Below, piece by piece: positions 34,181-38,188 of a DNA stretch of 38,559 bases. Position 1 is the stretch's first letter. Every line of letters begins with the position of its first letter. Both the position numbers and the translations under genes were made by a program. The DNA is from Microcaldota archaeon. Lineage in GTDB: Archaea > Micrarchaeota > Micrarchaeia > Micrarchaeales > Micrarchaeaceae. The stretch spans positions 1 through 38,559 of the forward strand of contig JAJYWI010000018.1 of assembly GCA_021791535.1 (NCBI GenBank), in the 5' to 3' direction. The notes beneath the pieces are model-generated. The model was not told where the DNA came from, did no database searches, and saw only the letters and a list, made by a program, of their open reading frames with translations.

Positions 34181-35587
34181 TTATATCGGGCACGTAGCAC
34201 CAGCCCATTTGAGCGTGACGCTGCCGCCGCCTCCACCAGCTGAATCTATGCCAGCCTGCCCAGTGCCGCCGTCGGCCGCTCCGCCTGCCAGGCCGTTGCC
34301 GCTGACGCCACCCGCCCCTCCGTTACCACCATATCCCCCTCCACCGCCTCCTCCCCCTCCAAAGGAGGTGCTACTAGAGCCACCAGAACCACCACCGCTG
34401 CCGCTGCCTCCGGTACCTCCTGTGCCATACGTACCAAACCCACCACTGCCGCCTGCAGTGAAACTTCCCGTATTGCTACCAGAGCATGTGCCTTCACCGG
34501 CACCAGAGCCTCCAGAGGTGCTTCCACCTCCGCCGCCACAGCCTTCTGTAAGAGTTGGTGCTTGCGTGCCTCCTTGCCCGCCATTTGCATACTGTATCAG
34601 TACTCCATTTACTAGTATCGCTGAGCTTCCTCCACCTCCACCCCCTCCAGGCTCTCCATTCCCGCCGCCCCCTCCGCCGTAATATCCGCTGCCACCGCCT
34701 CCACCGCCATCACAGTTGCCACCACAACCACTGCCGGAGCCGCCTCCTCCGCCACCGCCTCCAGCGTAGATTGTTAGGGCATCGTTAGCGTCTATGATAA
34801 AGTTGCCTGTTACTGTACTGCCAGACAGCCCATTCCCAGATGAGACACCCCCGCCTCCTCCGCCACCATACATCGTATAATTTATAACTGCATCATTCGG
34901 TACAGTCTCCGAGAGATAGCTCGTGACCGTAATTGCGTTGTTTGTGCCAGAGCCCTGCCCGCATAATGTGAAGATTGTCGTAGTGGAGAGTGATGAAACT
35001 AGGGTAGTGGAAGAGACCGACGTGGAGGAGATAGATGTGGAGTAGACTGTGGTGGAGGAGACCGAGGTTGAAGCAGTTGTGGAAAATAGCGTAGTGCTGA
35101 ATTGTATTGCAGTCGAGACCTTAAGAAGAACGCTTCCAGTGGCAGTGTGAGACAAGCCGGTCGACATGTCAGTATAATTCATTATTAGATAGCCACGGTA
35201 GATAGAACCTATGGATCCGCTGAAAACAGAAGGCCCTACGTAGCATTGTATTAAGTTGAATGTATGGCTACCTCCTGAAGGTATACTCACCTGTGGGCTT
35301 TCTTGTTGCATGTTTGCAGTTGTCACGTTTGTGTTACATCCGATAGCAGTTACGTTTATTGATGATGTTGTACCCTGCTCAATGCTAAGGCTGAGATAGC
35401 CGTATGTAGTCAGCACAGTTCCGCTGCAGGTGAATCCAATCGGCATCGTGCAGGTGTCACCTACAAGCGCGCCGGAGTTGAATACGCCCATTAAATAAAG
35501 CGCGGAGAGAGCTATTGCGACTATCAGTATCATCCACCCGTAGGTAAGCATGTACTCCATTGCTGATTGCGCTTTTCTGGCTCCCAT
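34181..35587 (-). CDS. Class III signal pilin-like protein with polyglycine tail
   Basis: About 468 aa. The N-terminus MGARKAQSAMEYMLTYGW is an archaeal class III (type IV pilin) signal. Cleavage is expected between Ala6 and Gln7, with Glu at +5 and a hydrophobic assembly helix behind. A beta-rich section with N-x-S/T sites follows (about 45-155), then a Ser/Thr/Val stalk (about 156-206). From about residue 241 the chain is dominated by runs of 3-9 glycines (nucleotides about 34190-34870), interspersed with cysteines and short strands such as LTIYAGGG and ILVNGVLIQYANGG. It ends SVTLKWAGATCPI. The ATG at 35587 is chosen because the ORF start at 35623 lies within moxR. Confidence 0.8.
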   Translation of the reverse strand: MGARKAQSAMEYMLTYGWMILIVAIALSALYLMGVFNSGALVGDTCTMPIGFTCSGTVLTTYGYLSLSIEQGTTSSINVTAIGCNTNVTTANMQQESPQVSIPSGGSHTFNLIQCYVGPSVFSGSIGSIYRGYLIMNYTDMSTGLSHTATGSVLLKVSTAIQFSTTLFSTTASTSVSSTTVYSTSISSTSVSSTTLVSSLSTTTIFTLCGQGSGTNNAITVTSYLSETVPNDAVINYTMYGGGGGGGVSSGNGLSGSTVTGNFIIDANDALTIYAGGGGGGGGSGSGCGGNCDGGGGGGSGYYGGGGGGNGEPGGGGGGGSSAILVNGVLIQYANGGQGGTQAPTLTEGCGGGGGSTSGGSGAGEGTCSGSNTGSFTAGGSGGFGTYGTGGTGGSGSGGGSGGSSSTSFGGGGGGGGGYGGNGGAGGVSGNGLAGGAADGGTGQAGIDSAGGGGGSVTLKWAGATCPI

Positions 35588-35597
35588 CCAATCACGT

Positions 35598-36506
35598 TCA
35601 GTGCAGCGTGGCCACGATCCCATCTATTATTCCGTTGACGCCTATGCCGCCTGTCGCCCTCGCCACTATCCTGTGGCTGAGCACAGGCCTCGCCAGGTAC
35701 TTCACGTCATCGATTGTTATGCCATTCCTGCCCTCTATCAGCGCCTTCGCTTTCGCGCACTTCATGAAGCTTATCTCAGCCCTCGGGCTCCCGCCCATTA
35801 CGGTGTGTATCTCGGTCCTTGTCGCGTCGACCAGCTTAGTTATGTACTCTTCGACGTCATCTGGCATCTTTACTCCGTTTACCATCGACTGCATCTGCAG
35901 CACATCATCCTTGCTAAGGACCCTCTTCGCAACCGTCTTTTCCTCGCTCTCCTTCAGCCGCAGCATCTCCTCCTCCTCGCTCATGCTCGGGTATGTCACC
36001 TCTATCCTCATGAGGAACCTGTCCGCGAGCACCTTTGGCAGCGGCGATGTGCCCTCTATATTAAGCGGGTTCTGCGTCGCCAGGGCCATGAACGGCTTTT
36101 CGAGCTGCATTGTCTTGTCTGATACTGTCACCTGCCTCTCCTCCAGGGCTTCGAGGAGCGCGGTGGTTGTCTTCGGCGGCGCCCTGTTCAGCTCGTCTAT
36201 GAGCAGTACGTTGTTGAATATTGGCCCTTTCTTCAGCACTACGTTCCTGTTCTCGTCTATGTACGTGAAACCTATTATGTCCTTTATGTCGAGGTCCGGC
36301 ATCCCCTGGATCCTGCCGAAGCTCGCGTCTATGGTGTCTGCGATCGTCTTCGTCATCGTCGTCTTCGCCACCCCTGGCACGCCTTCGAGGAGCACGTGGC
36401 CGTTCGCGACCATGGCCATGAAGATTAGTTTTATGGTATCCTCCTTTCCGGCTATATGCTTCTTCACCTCCCCGTATACGGCTTCGTAGGCAGCTTTGGG
36501 ATCCAT
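35598..36506 (-). CDS. MoxR-family AAA+ ATPase
   Basis: A 302-aa ATPase of the MoxR/RavA clade. It has GHVLLEGVPGVAKTTMTKTIAD (Walker A GVPGVAKT), and RIQGMPDLDIKDIIGFTYIDENR. Walker B is NVLLIDELNRAPPKTTTALLEALEERQV, and the sensor 1 region is FMALATQNPLNIEGTSPLP. SPRAEISFMKCAKAKALIEGR and YLARPVLSHRI lie in the lid. MoxR proteins work as chaperones for metal insertion or assembly of partner complexes, often next to DUF58/VWA genes, which are absent here. It lies 10 bp upstream of the pilin-like gene, so the two are probably cotranscribed. The start, ATG 36506 or TTG 36512, is not settled. Confidence 0.92.
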   Translation of the reverse strand: MDPKAAYEAVYGEVKKHIAGKEDTIKLIFMAMVANGHVLLEGVPGVAKTTMTKTIADTIDASFGRIQGMPDLDIKDIIGFTYIDENRNVVLKKGPIFNNVLLIDELNRAPPKTTTALLEALEERQVTVSDKTMQLEKPFMALATQNPLNIEGTSPLPKVLADRFLMRIEVTYPSMSEEEEMLRLKESEEKTVAKRVLSKDDVLQMQSMVNGVKMPDDVEEYITKLVDATRTEIHTVMGGSPRAEISFMKCAKAKALIEGRNGITIDDVKYLARPVLSHRIVARATGGIGVNGIIDGIVATLH

Positions 36507-36515
36507 GGACAAACC

Positions 36516-36569: not shown

Positions 36570-36595
36570 ACTAAATACTTAGTGCTGTGGTGGGT

Positions 36596-36925
36596 ATGAT
36601 AGGCAAAGAGTCGAAGAATACAGGACGAGTTTCTCTCAGCGAGGCGTTGGAGATACTGGAAGCGCGGAAGAAGGAGCGCGAGCTTACCTATGAGCAGCAG
36701 ATAGCCCTGGAGCATGCGTCGAAATTCGCGGCCTCGAAGGGCTCAGAGCAGAAGATAAAGAAGGCGCTGGAGGAGCTCGGCATGCTGTCGCAGCAGACGG
36801 TGCTTGCGATACTGAACACTATGCCGAAGAGCGAGATGCTGCTCAAGCAGATACTTGCAGGTGAGAAGAAAGCCTTCACTGATGCAGAGATAAAGAAAAT
36901 CGCAGCTATAGTGAATCCGAAGTAG
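36596..36925 (+). CDS. rpoF: DNA-directed RNA polymerase subunit Rpo4 (F, Rpb4-like)
   Basis: A 109-aa protein of the Rpb4 family, half of the Rpo4/7 stalk of archaeal RNA polymerase. It opens with RVSLSEALEILEARKKERELTYEQQIALEHASKF (pattern VSxxEAxxIL...LxYEQxxaLxHAxxF). The HRDC-like end has LNTMPKSEMLLKQILAGEK and FTDAEIKKIAAIV. The ATG at 36596 is preferred to the GTG codons at 36587 and 36590 because of TATA spacing. It is followed by the DUF655 gene, the usual archaeal neighbour pair. Confidence 0.92.
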   Translation: MIGKESKNTGRVSLSEALEILEARKKERELTYEQQIALEHASKFAASKGSEQKIKKALEELGMLSQQTVLAILNTMPKSEMLLKQILAGEKKAFTDAEIKKIAAIVNPK

Positions 36926-36951
36926 GTTTGAATGGGAGGGGTAATGCCGAT

Positions 36952-37524
36952 ATGCAAGAGGAGAGGCGTGAGGAGTATGCGTATGTGCTTGACTTCATGT
37001 CTACTGGGAAGTCTTTTTCTACAAGGTCTGAGCCGATAGCCCAGCTTGTCGGCGAGGAGTGGTTCACCCTGCTGGAGGTCACCCCTAAGCCGGGAGTGGC
37101 CATGTCACTAGGCGAGAGGGTCTATATAGGGAGGGAGGAGCGCGAAAAGGTCGCGCTGATAAAGGCGAGGATATCGTATGGCGATCTTACGCAGACGGCG
37201 AAAAACGGCCTGCAGAAGACCATACTGCAGATAATAGACGCGAACGAGAAAAGGTTTGTAGATGTCTTCAACAACGCCGGGCCGCTGAACATAAGGCAGC
37301 ATTCGCTCGAGCTGCTTCCTGGCGTAGGGAAAAAGCACCTGACTGCGATACTTAAGGCCAGGGAGGAGAAAAGGTTCGAAAACTTCGACGACATAAACAA
37401 GCGGGTCTCGCTGCTGCAGGAACCAAGGAAGCTGATAACAGAGCGCGTAATGCTGGAGCTTCAGGGCAACGAGCGCTTCTACATGTTCACGAAGCCTTAT
37501 GTGAAGAGAGAGGGCAGATACTAG
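36952..37524 (+). CDS. DUF655 family nucleic acid-binding protein
   Basis: About 190 aa. An OB-like N-terminal part contains EEYAYVLDFM, then EEWFTLLEVTPKPGVAMSLGERVYIG. The helix-hairpin-helix-like part contains LNIRQHSLELLPGVGKKHLTAILKARE and the end RFYMFTKPY. This is the archaeal DUF655 (COG1491) protein, predicted to bind RNA or DNA. It is almost always encoded with rpoF and L21e, as here. The ATG at 36952 follows a GGGAGGGG stretch. A TTG at 36928 is an alternative and would add eight residues. The last 4 bp overlap the convergent L21e gene. Confidence 0.9.
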   Translation: MQEERREEYAYVLDFMSTGKSFSTRSEPIAQLVGEEWFTLLEVTPKPGVAMSLGERVYIGREEREKVALIKARISYGDLTQTAKNGLQKTILQIIDANEKRFVDVFNNAGPLNIRQHSLELLPGVGKKHLTAILKAREEKRFENFDDINKRVSLLQEPRKLITERVMLELQGNERFYMFTKPYVKREGRY

Positions 37525-37805
37525 GCCTTGTCCAAGTGCAGAGACGGCACTATGAGCGTGCGTTCCGCGCCCATTATCCTGACCTTTACTACATAGGCCG
37601 ATCCCCTTTTCTCGACTACAGTGCCGGTCCTCCCCTTGTACCTCGGATGAGGTATGTTATGCATGCCGCCCTTCGGCACTATGCACACCTTATCGCCTAT
37701 TGAGAACTGCTTTATTATGTCGTTTGTGTTAAGCGTCGATGGCTTGTGGTGCCTTGCCAGGTGCCTTGTCTTTCCTACAAGGAGCCCCTGAGATCTCTTT
37801 GACAT
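37521..37805 (-). CDS. rpl21e: Large ribosomal subunit protein eL21
   Basis: A 94-aa protein of the archaeal/eukaryal L21e family. It opens with SQGLLVGKTRHLARHH, followed by the SH3-like core FSIGDKVCIVPKGGMHNIPHPRYKGRTGTVVEKRG and AYVVKVRI. The HPRYxGRTGxV motif is diagnostic. It is commonly next to the rpoF-DUF655 pair in archaea, although usually on the same strand. Here it is convergent with DUF655, with a 4-bp overlap. Confidence 0.95.
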   Translation of the reverse strand: MSKRSQGLLVGKTRHLARHHKPSTLNTNDIIKQFSIGDKVCIVPKGGMHNIPHPRYKGRTGTVVEKRGSAYVVKVRIMGAERTLIVPSLHLDKA

Positions 37806-37836: not shown

Positions 37837-37847
37837 GTATTTATACC
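37837..37847. promoter_or_regulatory. Possible shared TATA box (L21e / single-repeat TBP)
   Basis: GTATTTATACC is nearly palindromic and is about 32 bp from the TBP-like ATG at 37874 and about 37 bp from the L21e ATG at 37805. It could serve both directions. The only 68 bp between the genes contain no other TATA-like element. Confidence 0.45.
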
Positions 37848-37873: not shown

Positions 37874-38188
37874 ATGCCCGGACATGCATCAAAAAGGCCA
37901 GTCGTGCTCAAGCCCACCTACACTATAGTCAACATAGTGGCGAACACTGCGTTGAATACGGATTTGGACCTGTACGGGCTGGCGAAGCTCTCGAGGGACG
38001 TCGACTACGAGCCTGAGCAGTTCCCTGGCGCTATCCTCAAGGTGCACGACCCAAAGGCCGCACTGCTCCTCTTCAAGAACGGCAAGATCATATGCACCGG
38101 AGCGAGGACGACATCGGATGTCAGGAAGGCGATTAACCATGCAATTGACCTCATAAAGAGGTACAAGAATGGCGCAAGGGGAAGGTAG
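37874..38188 (+). CDS. Single-repeat TATA-binding protein (half-TBP)
   Basis: A 104-aa protein holding exactly one TBP repeat (residues about 14-95): YTIVNIVANTALNTDLDL, then YEPEQFPGAILKVHDPKAALLLFKNGKIICTGA and a closing helix. Normal archaeal TBP is about 180-190 aa with two such repeats forming the DNA saddle. The residues that count are present: the minor-groove Asn (VNIVAN), DNA-kinking Phe50 (QFPG) and Phe66 (LLLF), and the NGKIICTGA strand. The frame ends in TAG, and no second repeat can be found in any frame of the 220 bp that follow. It would have to work as a homodimer. A short basic N-terminus (SKRPVVLKP) and tail (KRYKNGARGR) flank the repeat. Confidence 0.85.
   Translation: MPGHASKRPVVLKPTYTIVNIVANTALNTDLDLYGLAKLSRDVDYEPEQFPGAILKVHDPKAALLLFKNGKIICTGARTTSDVRKAINHAIDLIKRYKNGARGR

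Follow-up and report, generated by a model that had tools for sequence, protein, structure and literature searches.

In many Micrarchaeota, the general TATA-binding protein (TBP) has probably been reduced to one repeat that works as a dimer; the micrarchaeal ancestor would have had a single repeat, and one clade would later have duplicated it again. The window, i.e. the whole stretch of 38,559 nucleotides analysed here, comes from a micrarchaeote and carries such a single-repeat gene, tbp-A. The two-lobed shape of TBP is a textbook case of internal duplication in a universal factor.

The single-repeat gene tbp-A and its locus

The tbp-A open reading frame (37874-38188, plus strand) is complete from ATG to stop and encodes 104 amino acids. 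It contains one complete TBP repeat (37919-38164, plus strand, no internal stop), which matches PF00352 with 90.7 bits (cut-off 22.9; E = 3.6e-26) over positions 2-85 of the 85 of the profile. The domain occupies residues 16-97 of 104 and the profile search found no further one. We observed that the minor-groove asparagine N20 and the two DNA-kinking phenylalanines, F50 (38021-38023) and F67 of LLLFKNGK (38072-38074, plus strand), are unchanged across 38 orthologues. In the stirrup YEPEQFPG, which carries the motif EPEQFP (38009-38026, plus strand), E46, P47, E48, Q49, F50, P51 and G52 are all invariant in the same set; E46 and E48 are taken here, from established TBP-TFIIB structures, to correspond to residues that form the TFB/TFIIB-binding stirrup in two-repeat TBP. 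No second TBP repeat was present in the 371 bases 3' of the stop codon at 38188. The initial annotation had described one repeat with its kinking phenylalanines and groove asparagine kept and then a stop, and this description holds.

The AF2 model of TBP-A (mean pLDDT 84, pTM 0.69) has the elements S1-H1-S2-S3-S4-S5-H2 and superposes on one lobe of solved TBP structures with 1.1-1.5 Å over about 78 residues (1.1 Å over 78 columns for 1cdw and 2z8u). With canonical archaeal and eukaryotic TBP (two repeats; PDB 1mp9, 2z8u, 1ais) TBP-A shares the fold, the kinking phenylalanines and the groove asparagine, and the TFB-binding stirrup and BRE/TATA promoters are common to canonical and micrarchaeal single-repeat TBP. 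However, TBP-A has one repeat and not two, FPGAI and FKNGK replace FPGL(I/V) and FxSGK, and its identity to single canonical lobes is about 31-42%. TBP-A does not have two tandem repeats in one chain, and with the NCBIfam TATA-box-binding protein models (PRK00394 series) it reaches at best 81.6 bits, with one lobe aligned, below every NCBIfam TBP cut-off (181-347 bits). RNase HIII and DNA glycosylases also have a TBP domain with a single copy of a TBP-like fold, but there it is part of a larger enzyme, whereas TBP-A is the repeat alone and is far closer to TBP.

Orthologues of the same size were found in all genomes of the same genus in which the locus is present, and also in closed genomes. 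In the genus of the window, tbp-A has dN/dS values of 0.006-0.065, computed only for pairs with unsaturated dS, and the gene is by this measure under strong purifying selection. A decayed pseudogene is ruled out by the same-size orthologues and by these dN/dS values, and a base error or frameshift hiding a second repeat by the equal gene length in relatives and in closed genomes.

The gene for ribosomal protein L21e (37521-37805, minus strand) is the divergent neighbour of tbp-A, followed by a DUF655 gene (36928-37524, plus strand) and rpoF, encoding Rpo4 (36587-36925, plus strand); rpoF and L21e had been named correctly at the outset. Between the two divergent genes, a 68-bp promoter region contains a candidate TATA box, TATTTATA (37838-37845, plus strand), 29-36 nt before the ATG of tbp-A, and its position agrees with the peak of the BRE+TATA motif of relatives. 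In most micrarchaeal genomes TBP is divergent to L21e with rpoF and DUF655 adjoining, in one- and two-repeat forms alike. The shared locus indicates that one- and two-repeat TBP are positional orthologues that were changed in place. In the genus of the single-contig genome G032, TBP-A and TBP-B (L073, L074) are unusually diverged, and the TBP-A of G032 is without any of the customary L21e-rpoF-DUF655 neighbours. Farther upstream in the window lies a gene (34181-35623, minus strand) for a glycine-rich protein of 480 amino acids whose hydrophobic N-terminal segment (KAQSAMEYMLTYGWMILIVAIALSALYLMGVF) is pilin-like; this gene is adjoined by an AAA ATPase gene of MoxR-like appearance (35598-36512, minus strand).

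We also searched the whole genome of the window (741 kb, 25 contigs, 93% complete) in six frames with PF00352. Exactly two places match, each with one repeat, C7:37919-38164 and C14:69653-69895, and no two-repeat TBP was found in this assembly. The second place, TBP-B, is an unlinked 117-aa open reading frame on another contig, conserved in its locus near SRP54, a glycosyltransferase and a GGR-like oxidoreductase, with dN/dS values of 0.023-0.077 in the genus of the window where dS is unsaturated. TBP-A and TBP-B are therefore the sole TBP sources of this genome. The search that had been proposed of the remaining genome brought to light no full two-repeat TBP, and the half-TBP of the window has to share its genome with a second one, which could not be seen from the window.

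Distribution of one- and two-repeat TBP in Micrarchaeota

For the comparison we used a phylum sample of 146 genomes and a closer set of 60 relatives. In the phylum sample, a PF00352 match was absent from five draft genomes, and 11 of the 20 families with a TBP match have single-repeat TBP only (f1, f2, f8, f9, f10, f11, f13, f14, f15, f17 and f21, with the exception of genome G017). Families f3-f7, f12, f16, f18 and f20 have two repeats per chain. These micrarchaeal two-repeat proteins occupy the same locus as TBP-A and carry the same derived motifs in both repeats; they differ from it in their two repeats per chain, up to 74% identical to each other, and in gene conversion. All the non-micrarchaeal TBPs compared have two repeats. 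Among the 60 relatives, two separate genes of one repeat each occur in nearly all f1 genomes, and a single such gene in most f2 genomes.

Five single-contig genomes (G015, G016, G032, G039 and G084) have single repeats only, which rules out an assembly artefact; G084 is by its coordinates and contig count the closed genome of Ca. Micrarchaeum sp. A_DKE, in which TBP-A is locus L134; for the co-culture of this organism RNA reads are available (PMC8975820). One could suppose that tbp-A is a paralogue or a decayed relic and that the general TBP lies in the part of the window genome that the 93% complete assembly does not cover. This is hardly credible, given the same state in these five single-contig genomes, the strong purifying selection on tbp-A, and the fact that its locus is the TBP locus phylum-wide. 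The two-repeat TBP of the f1 genome G017 does not help the supposition either. This protein of 185 amino acids (L062 2712-3269), present alongside TBP-A and TBP-B, is canonical in appearance and lies on the 8.4-kb contig C43, where none of the usual neighbours was found around it; on these two grounds it is probably a contaminating contig.

Other genomes depart from the general pattern. In family f11 (L093, L216, L217, L218, L242, L243) there are two or three single-repeat paralogues per genome, two of them nearly identical, and in G082, a member of this family, one of three single-repeat TBPs is at the L21e locus. Genome G135 has a one-repeat TBP (L210 2910-3200) at the same locus inside the two-repeat family f6, which points to a recent contraction, i.e. 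the reverse step. Two IMG/VR viral contigs of 84 and 150 kb (L343, L344) both carry a divergent TBP relative, and the open reading frame on the first (L343 3004-3561) has two repeats.

Direction of change

In a species tree of six markers, all two-repeat genomes and G135 form one clade (100/99) beside the one-repeat family f21. A rooted species tree, built with EF-2 and L2 and three euryarchaeal outgroups, separates at its first split the one-repeat families f10, f13, f15 and f17 from all others, and the two-repeat clade (100/99) is nested among one-repeat lineages. In the repeat tree, the micrarchaeal repeats form one clade against the canonical N and C lobes (99/97); grouping of micrarchaeal R1 with canonical N is rejected (p = 0.026), as is that of R2 with canonical C (p = 0.024), the AU p-values against the alternatives being moderate. 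The nested two-repeat clade and these rejections make a one-repeat ancestor with a new duplication in one clade the simplest history, and we regard it as the most likely one. By step count, loss in the stem and one regain make two steps against at least three losses. Acquisition of the two-repeat form by horizontal transfer is ruled out by the same locus and the same micrarchaeal motifs.

The two repeats of the micrarchaeal two-repeat genes also exchange sequence. In many of these genes, identical codons are used at 65-83% of identical residues, where codon usage would predict 39-55% (P as low as 1e-9); they form long shared runs across YEPEQFPGAI...FKNGK, and this sharing between R1 and R2 exceeds that of orthologous repeats in sister genomes (about 26-54%). 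Judging from such codon runs (seen in many of the genes L204-L209, L229-L237, L241 and L103), intragenic gene conversion between R1 and R2 is at work in many two-repeat TBP genes, and through it the TBP saddle would stay close to symmetry in these lineages. Since gene conversion alone could group R1 with R2, the case for re-duplication gains little from the repeat tree. The high identity of R1 and R2, considered as a proof of recent duplication, was weakened in the same way, as gene conversion accounts for part of it.

A two-repeat ancestor, homogenised by gene conversion, could instead have lost one repeat several times by recombination, with a protein that is still a dimer today. The visible conversion, the recent single-repeat case of G135 inside f6 and the trees in which R1 and R2 each form one clade, compatible with the data (p = 0.25 and 0.24), speak for such a history, which we hold to be possible, though clearly the less probable one. 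The number of further losses that it requires is no less than three and may reach about six, no sampled one-repeat family has a micrarchaeal-type two-repeat member, and a tree that unites all one-repeat lineages in a single clade is rejected (p-AU = 0.025).

The one-repeat ancestor that we favour may itself have two origins. One repeat may have been lost in the stem, which we consider no less probable than that a primitive state was retained. The micrarchaeal clade attaches between the canonical N and C lobes and shows no significant preference for either (p = 0.42), and for this reason the repeat tree stays compatible with a phylum that never underwent the ancient TBP duplication, in which the single-repeat homodimer would be a survivor and the two-repeat form a second, independent origin; we would give this little chance. 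A true pre-duplication relic is thus a possible but unlikely description of the single-repeat TBP. The initial annotation spoke of a living version of the pre-duplication state: this is apt for the architecture, but the ancestry does not follow, in view of the attachment without preference and of the two repeats in all non-micrarchaeal TBPs.

Nearly every f1 genome has two unlinked, conserved single-repeat genes, and one might take these for the N and C halves of a canonical TBP that underwent gene fission, with TBP-A and TBP-B now forming an obligate heterodimer. In the repeat tree, however, TBP-A and TBP-B are sister paralogue clades (94/74) inside the micrarchaeal clade, with no N/C split and apart from both canonical lobes. 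Moreover, only one TBP gene is found in most genomes of f2 and in families f8, f9, f10, f13-f15 and f17, and TBP-A is almost unchanged between f2 genomes with and without TBP-B. Fission is very improbable in the light of these observations. The loss of TBP-B in part of f2 with so little change in TBP-A suggests that TBP-A may suffice on its own. In the history that we propose, the ancestor of f1 and f2 would have duplicated the whole gene into TBP-A and TBP-B, with TBP-B then lost in part of f2, and another clade, descending from the same one-repeat common ancestor of Micrarchaeota, would have duplicated the repeat in place to give a two-repeat gene whose repeats were kept alike by gene conversion.

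Promoters, a proposed dimer and significance

All 16 genomes tested encode a TFB that is ordinary and has two cyclin repeats. In G089, whose sole TBP has one repeat, a BRE+TATA motif (AAA, then TTTWWAAA) was found in 329 upstream regions, with a sharp peak of starts 36-40 nt before the start codon and a log-likelihood of 291.6 against 52-68 in shuffles. A similar BRE+TATA motif was obtained for G125, which has a two-repeat TBP (log-likelihood 175 against 57-62 in shuffles). When fewer sequences were used, with mixed seeds, the motifs obtained for two genomes were uninformative. The palindromic TATA core, TTTWWAAA in G089, was dropped as a proof of a homodimer; it has no discriminating power because a palindromic core is also present in G125.

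Since one lobe corresponds to half of an 8-bp TATA box, a dimer is the natural inference, and dimerisation would be the only reasonable way for a single repeat to cover the whole box. A monomer could nevertheless bind a half-site and leave the remaining promoter recognition to TFB, which contributes BRE specificity in archaea, all the more so as the TATA motif is a computational one. We consider this improbable, as the TATA motif of G089 extends over all 8 bp and is informative in its two half-sites, which also holds for G125. The earlier view that this is a functional half-TBP, and that its archaeal host still uses TATA promoters, is supported, and the full 8-bp box kept by relatives with a sole single-repeat TBP lends support to the dimer that had been postulated.

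In the dimer that we favour, two single-repeat copies would pair via their first beta strands to form a saddle. In ordinary TBP, these strands are where the two lobes meet. Where a genome has only one single-repeat gene, e.g. G039, G069 and G089, the dimer would have to be a homodimer; in the family of the window, an A-B heterodimer is a possible alternative, and the window genome may possibly have an A homodimer, a B homodimer or an A-B heterodimer. As predicted from the residues, each subunit of the saddle would sit on one half-site of the 8-bp TATA box, and a single ordinary TFB would dock on one of two equivalent stirrups. If both stirrups are competent for TFB, as established TBP-TFB structures would imply, it is the reading of BRE by TFB that must set the direction of transcription.

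The abstract of a 2013 study by Brindefalk and colleagues is said to report single-TBP-domain proteins in some Archaea, in which, as in TBP-A, the whole protein is one TBP domain. Ravarani 2020 (PMC7221094) mentions single-lobe TBPs in archaea in one sentence, without species or function, and cites Brindefalk 2013 (doi 10.1093/nar/gkt045) for them. These very likely include the micrarchaeal kind, and the existence of single-lobe archaeal TBPs is consequently not new, so that the half-TBP of the window is not unprecedented. TBP was unmentioned in the Micrarchaeota papers examined, and no description of the dimer question, of the A/B pair or of re-duplication was found in the literature searched (Brindefalk 2013 in full text excepted). 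As far as checked, the new elements are the sole-TBP status, the locus shared across the phylum, the pair of TBP-A and TBP-B, and a re-duplication accompanied by gene conversion. From 34 species surveyed, the TBP repeat has been attributed to a single duplication (PMC4910066), to which the micrarchaeal two-repeat TBP is a candidate exception.

These observations carry a warning for annotation, as in many Micrarchaeota the general TBP escapes models built on two lobes. They also make the question of what the TBP duplication buys testable with natural proteins, through the polarity of a symmetric TBP and the sufficiency of BRE and TFB. A whole archaeal radiation would be living with one TBP lobe, and three stages apparently coexist at one locus: a single gene whose product would act as a homodimer, a pair of genes (A and B), and a fusion in place whose symmetry is maintained by gene conversion. 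By fusing two copies, one sub-branch of Micrarchaeota appears to re-enact the duplication that is thought to have made TBP.
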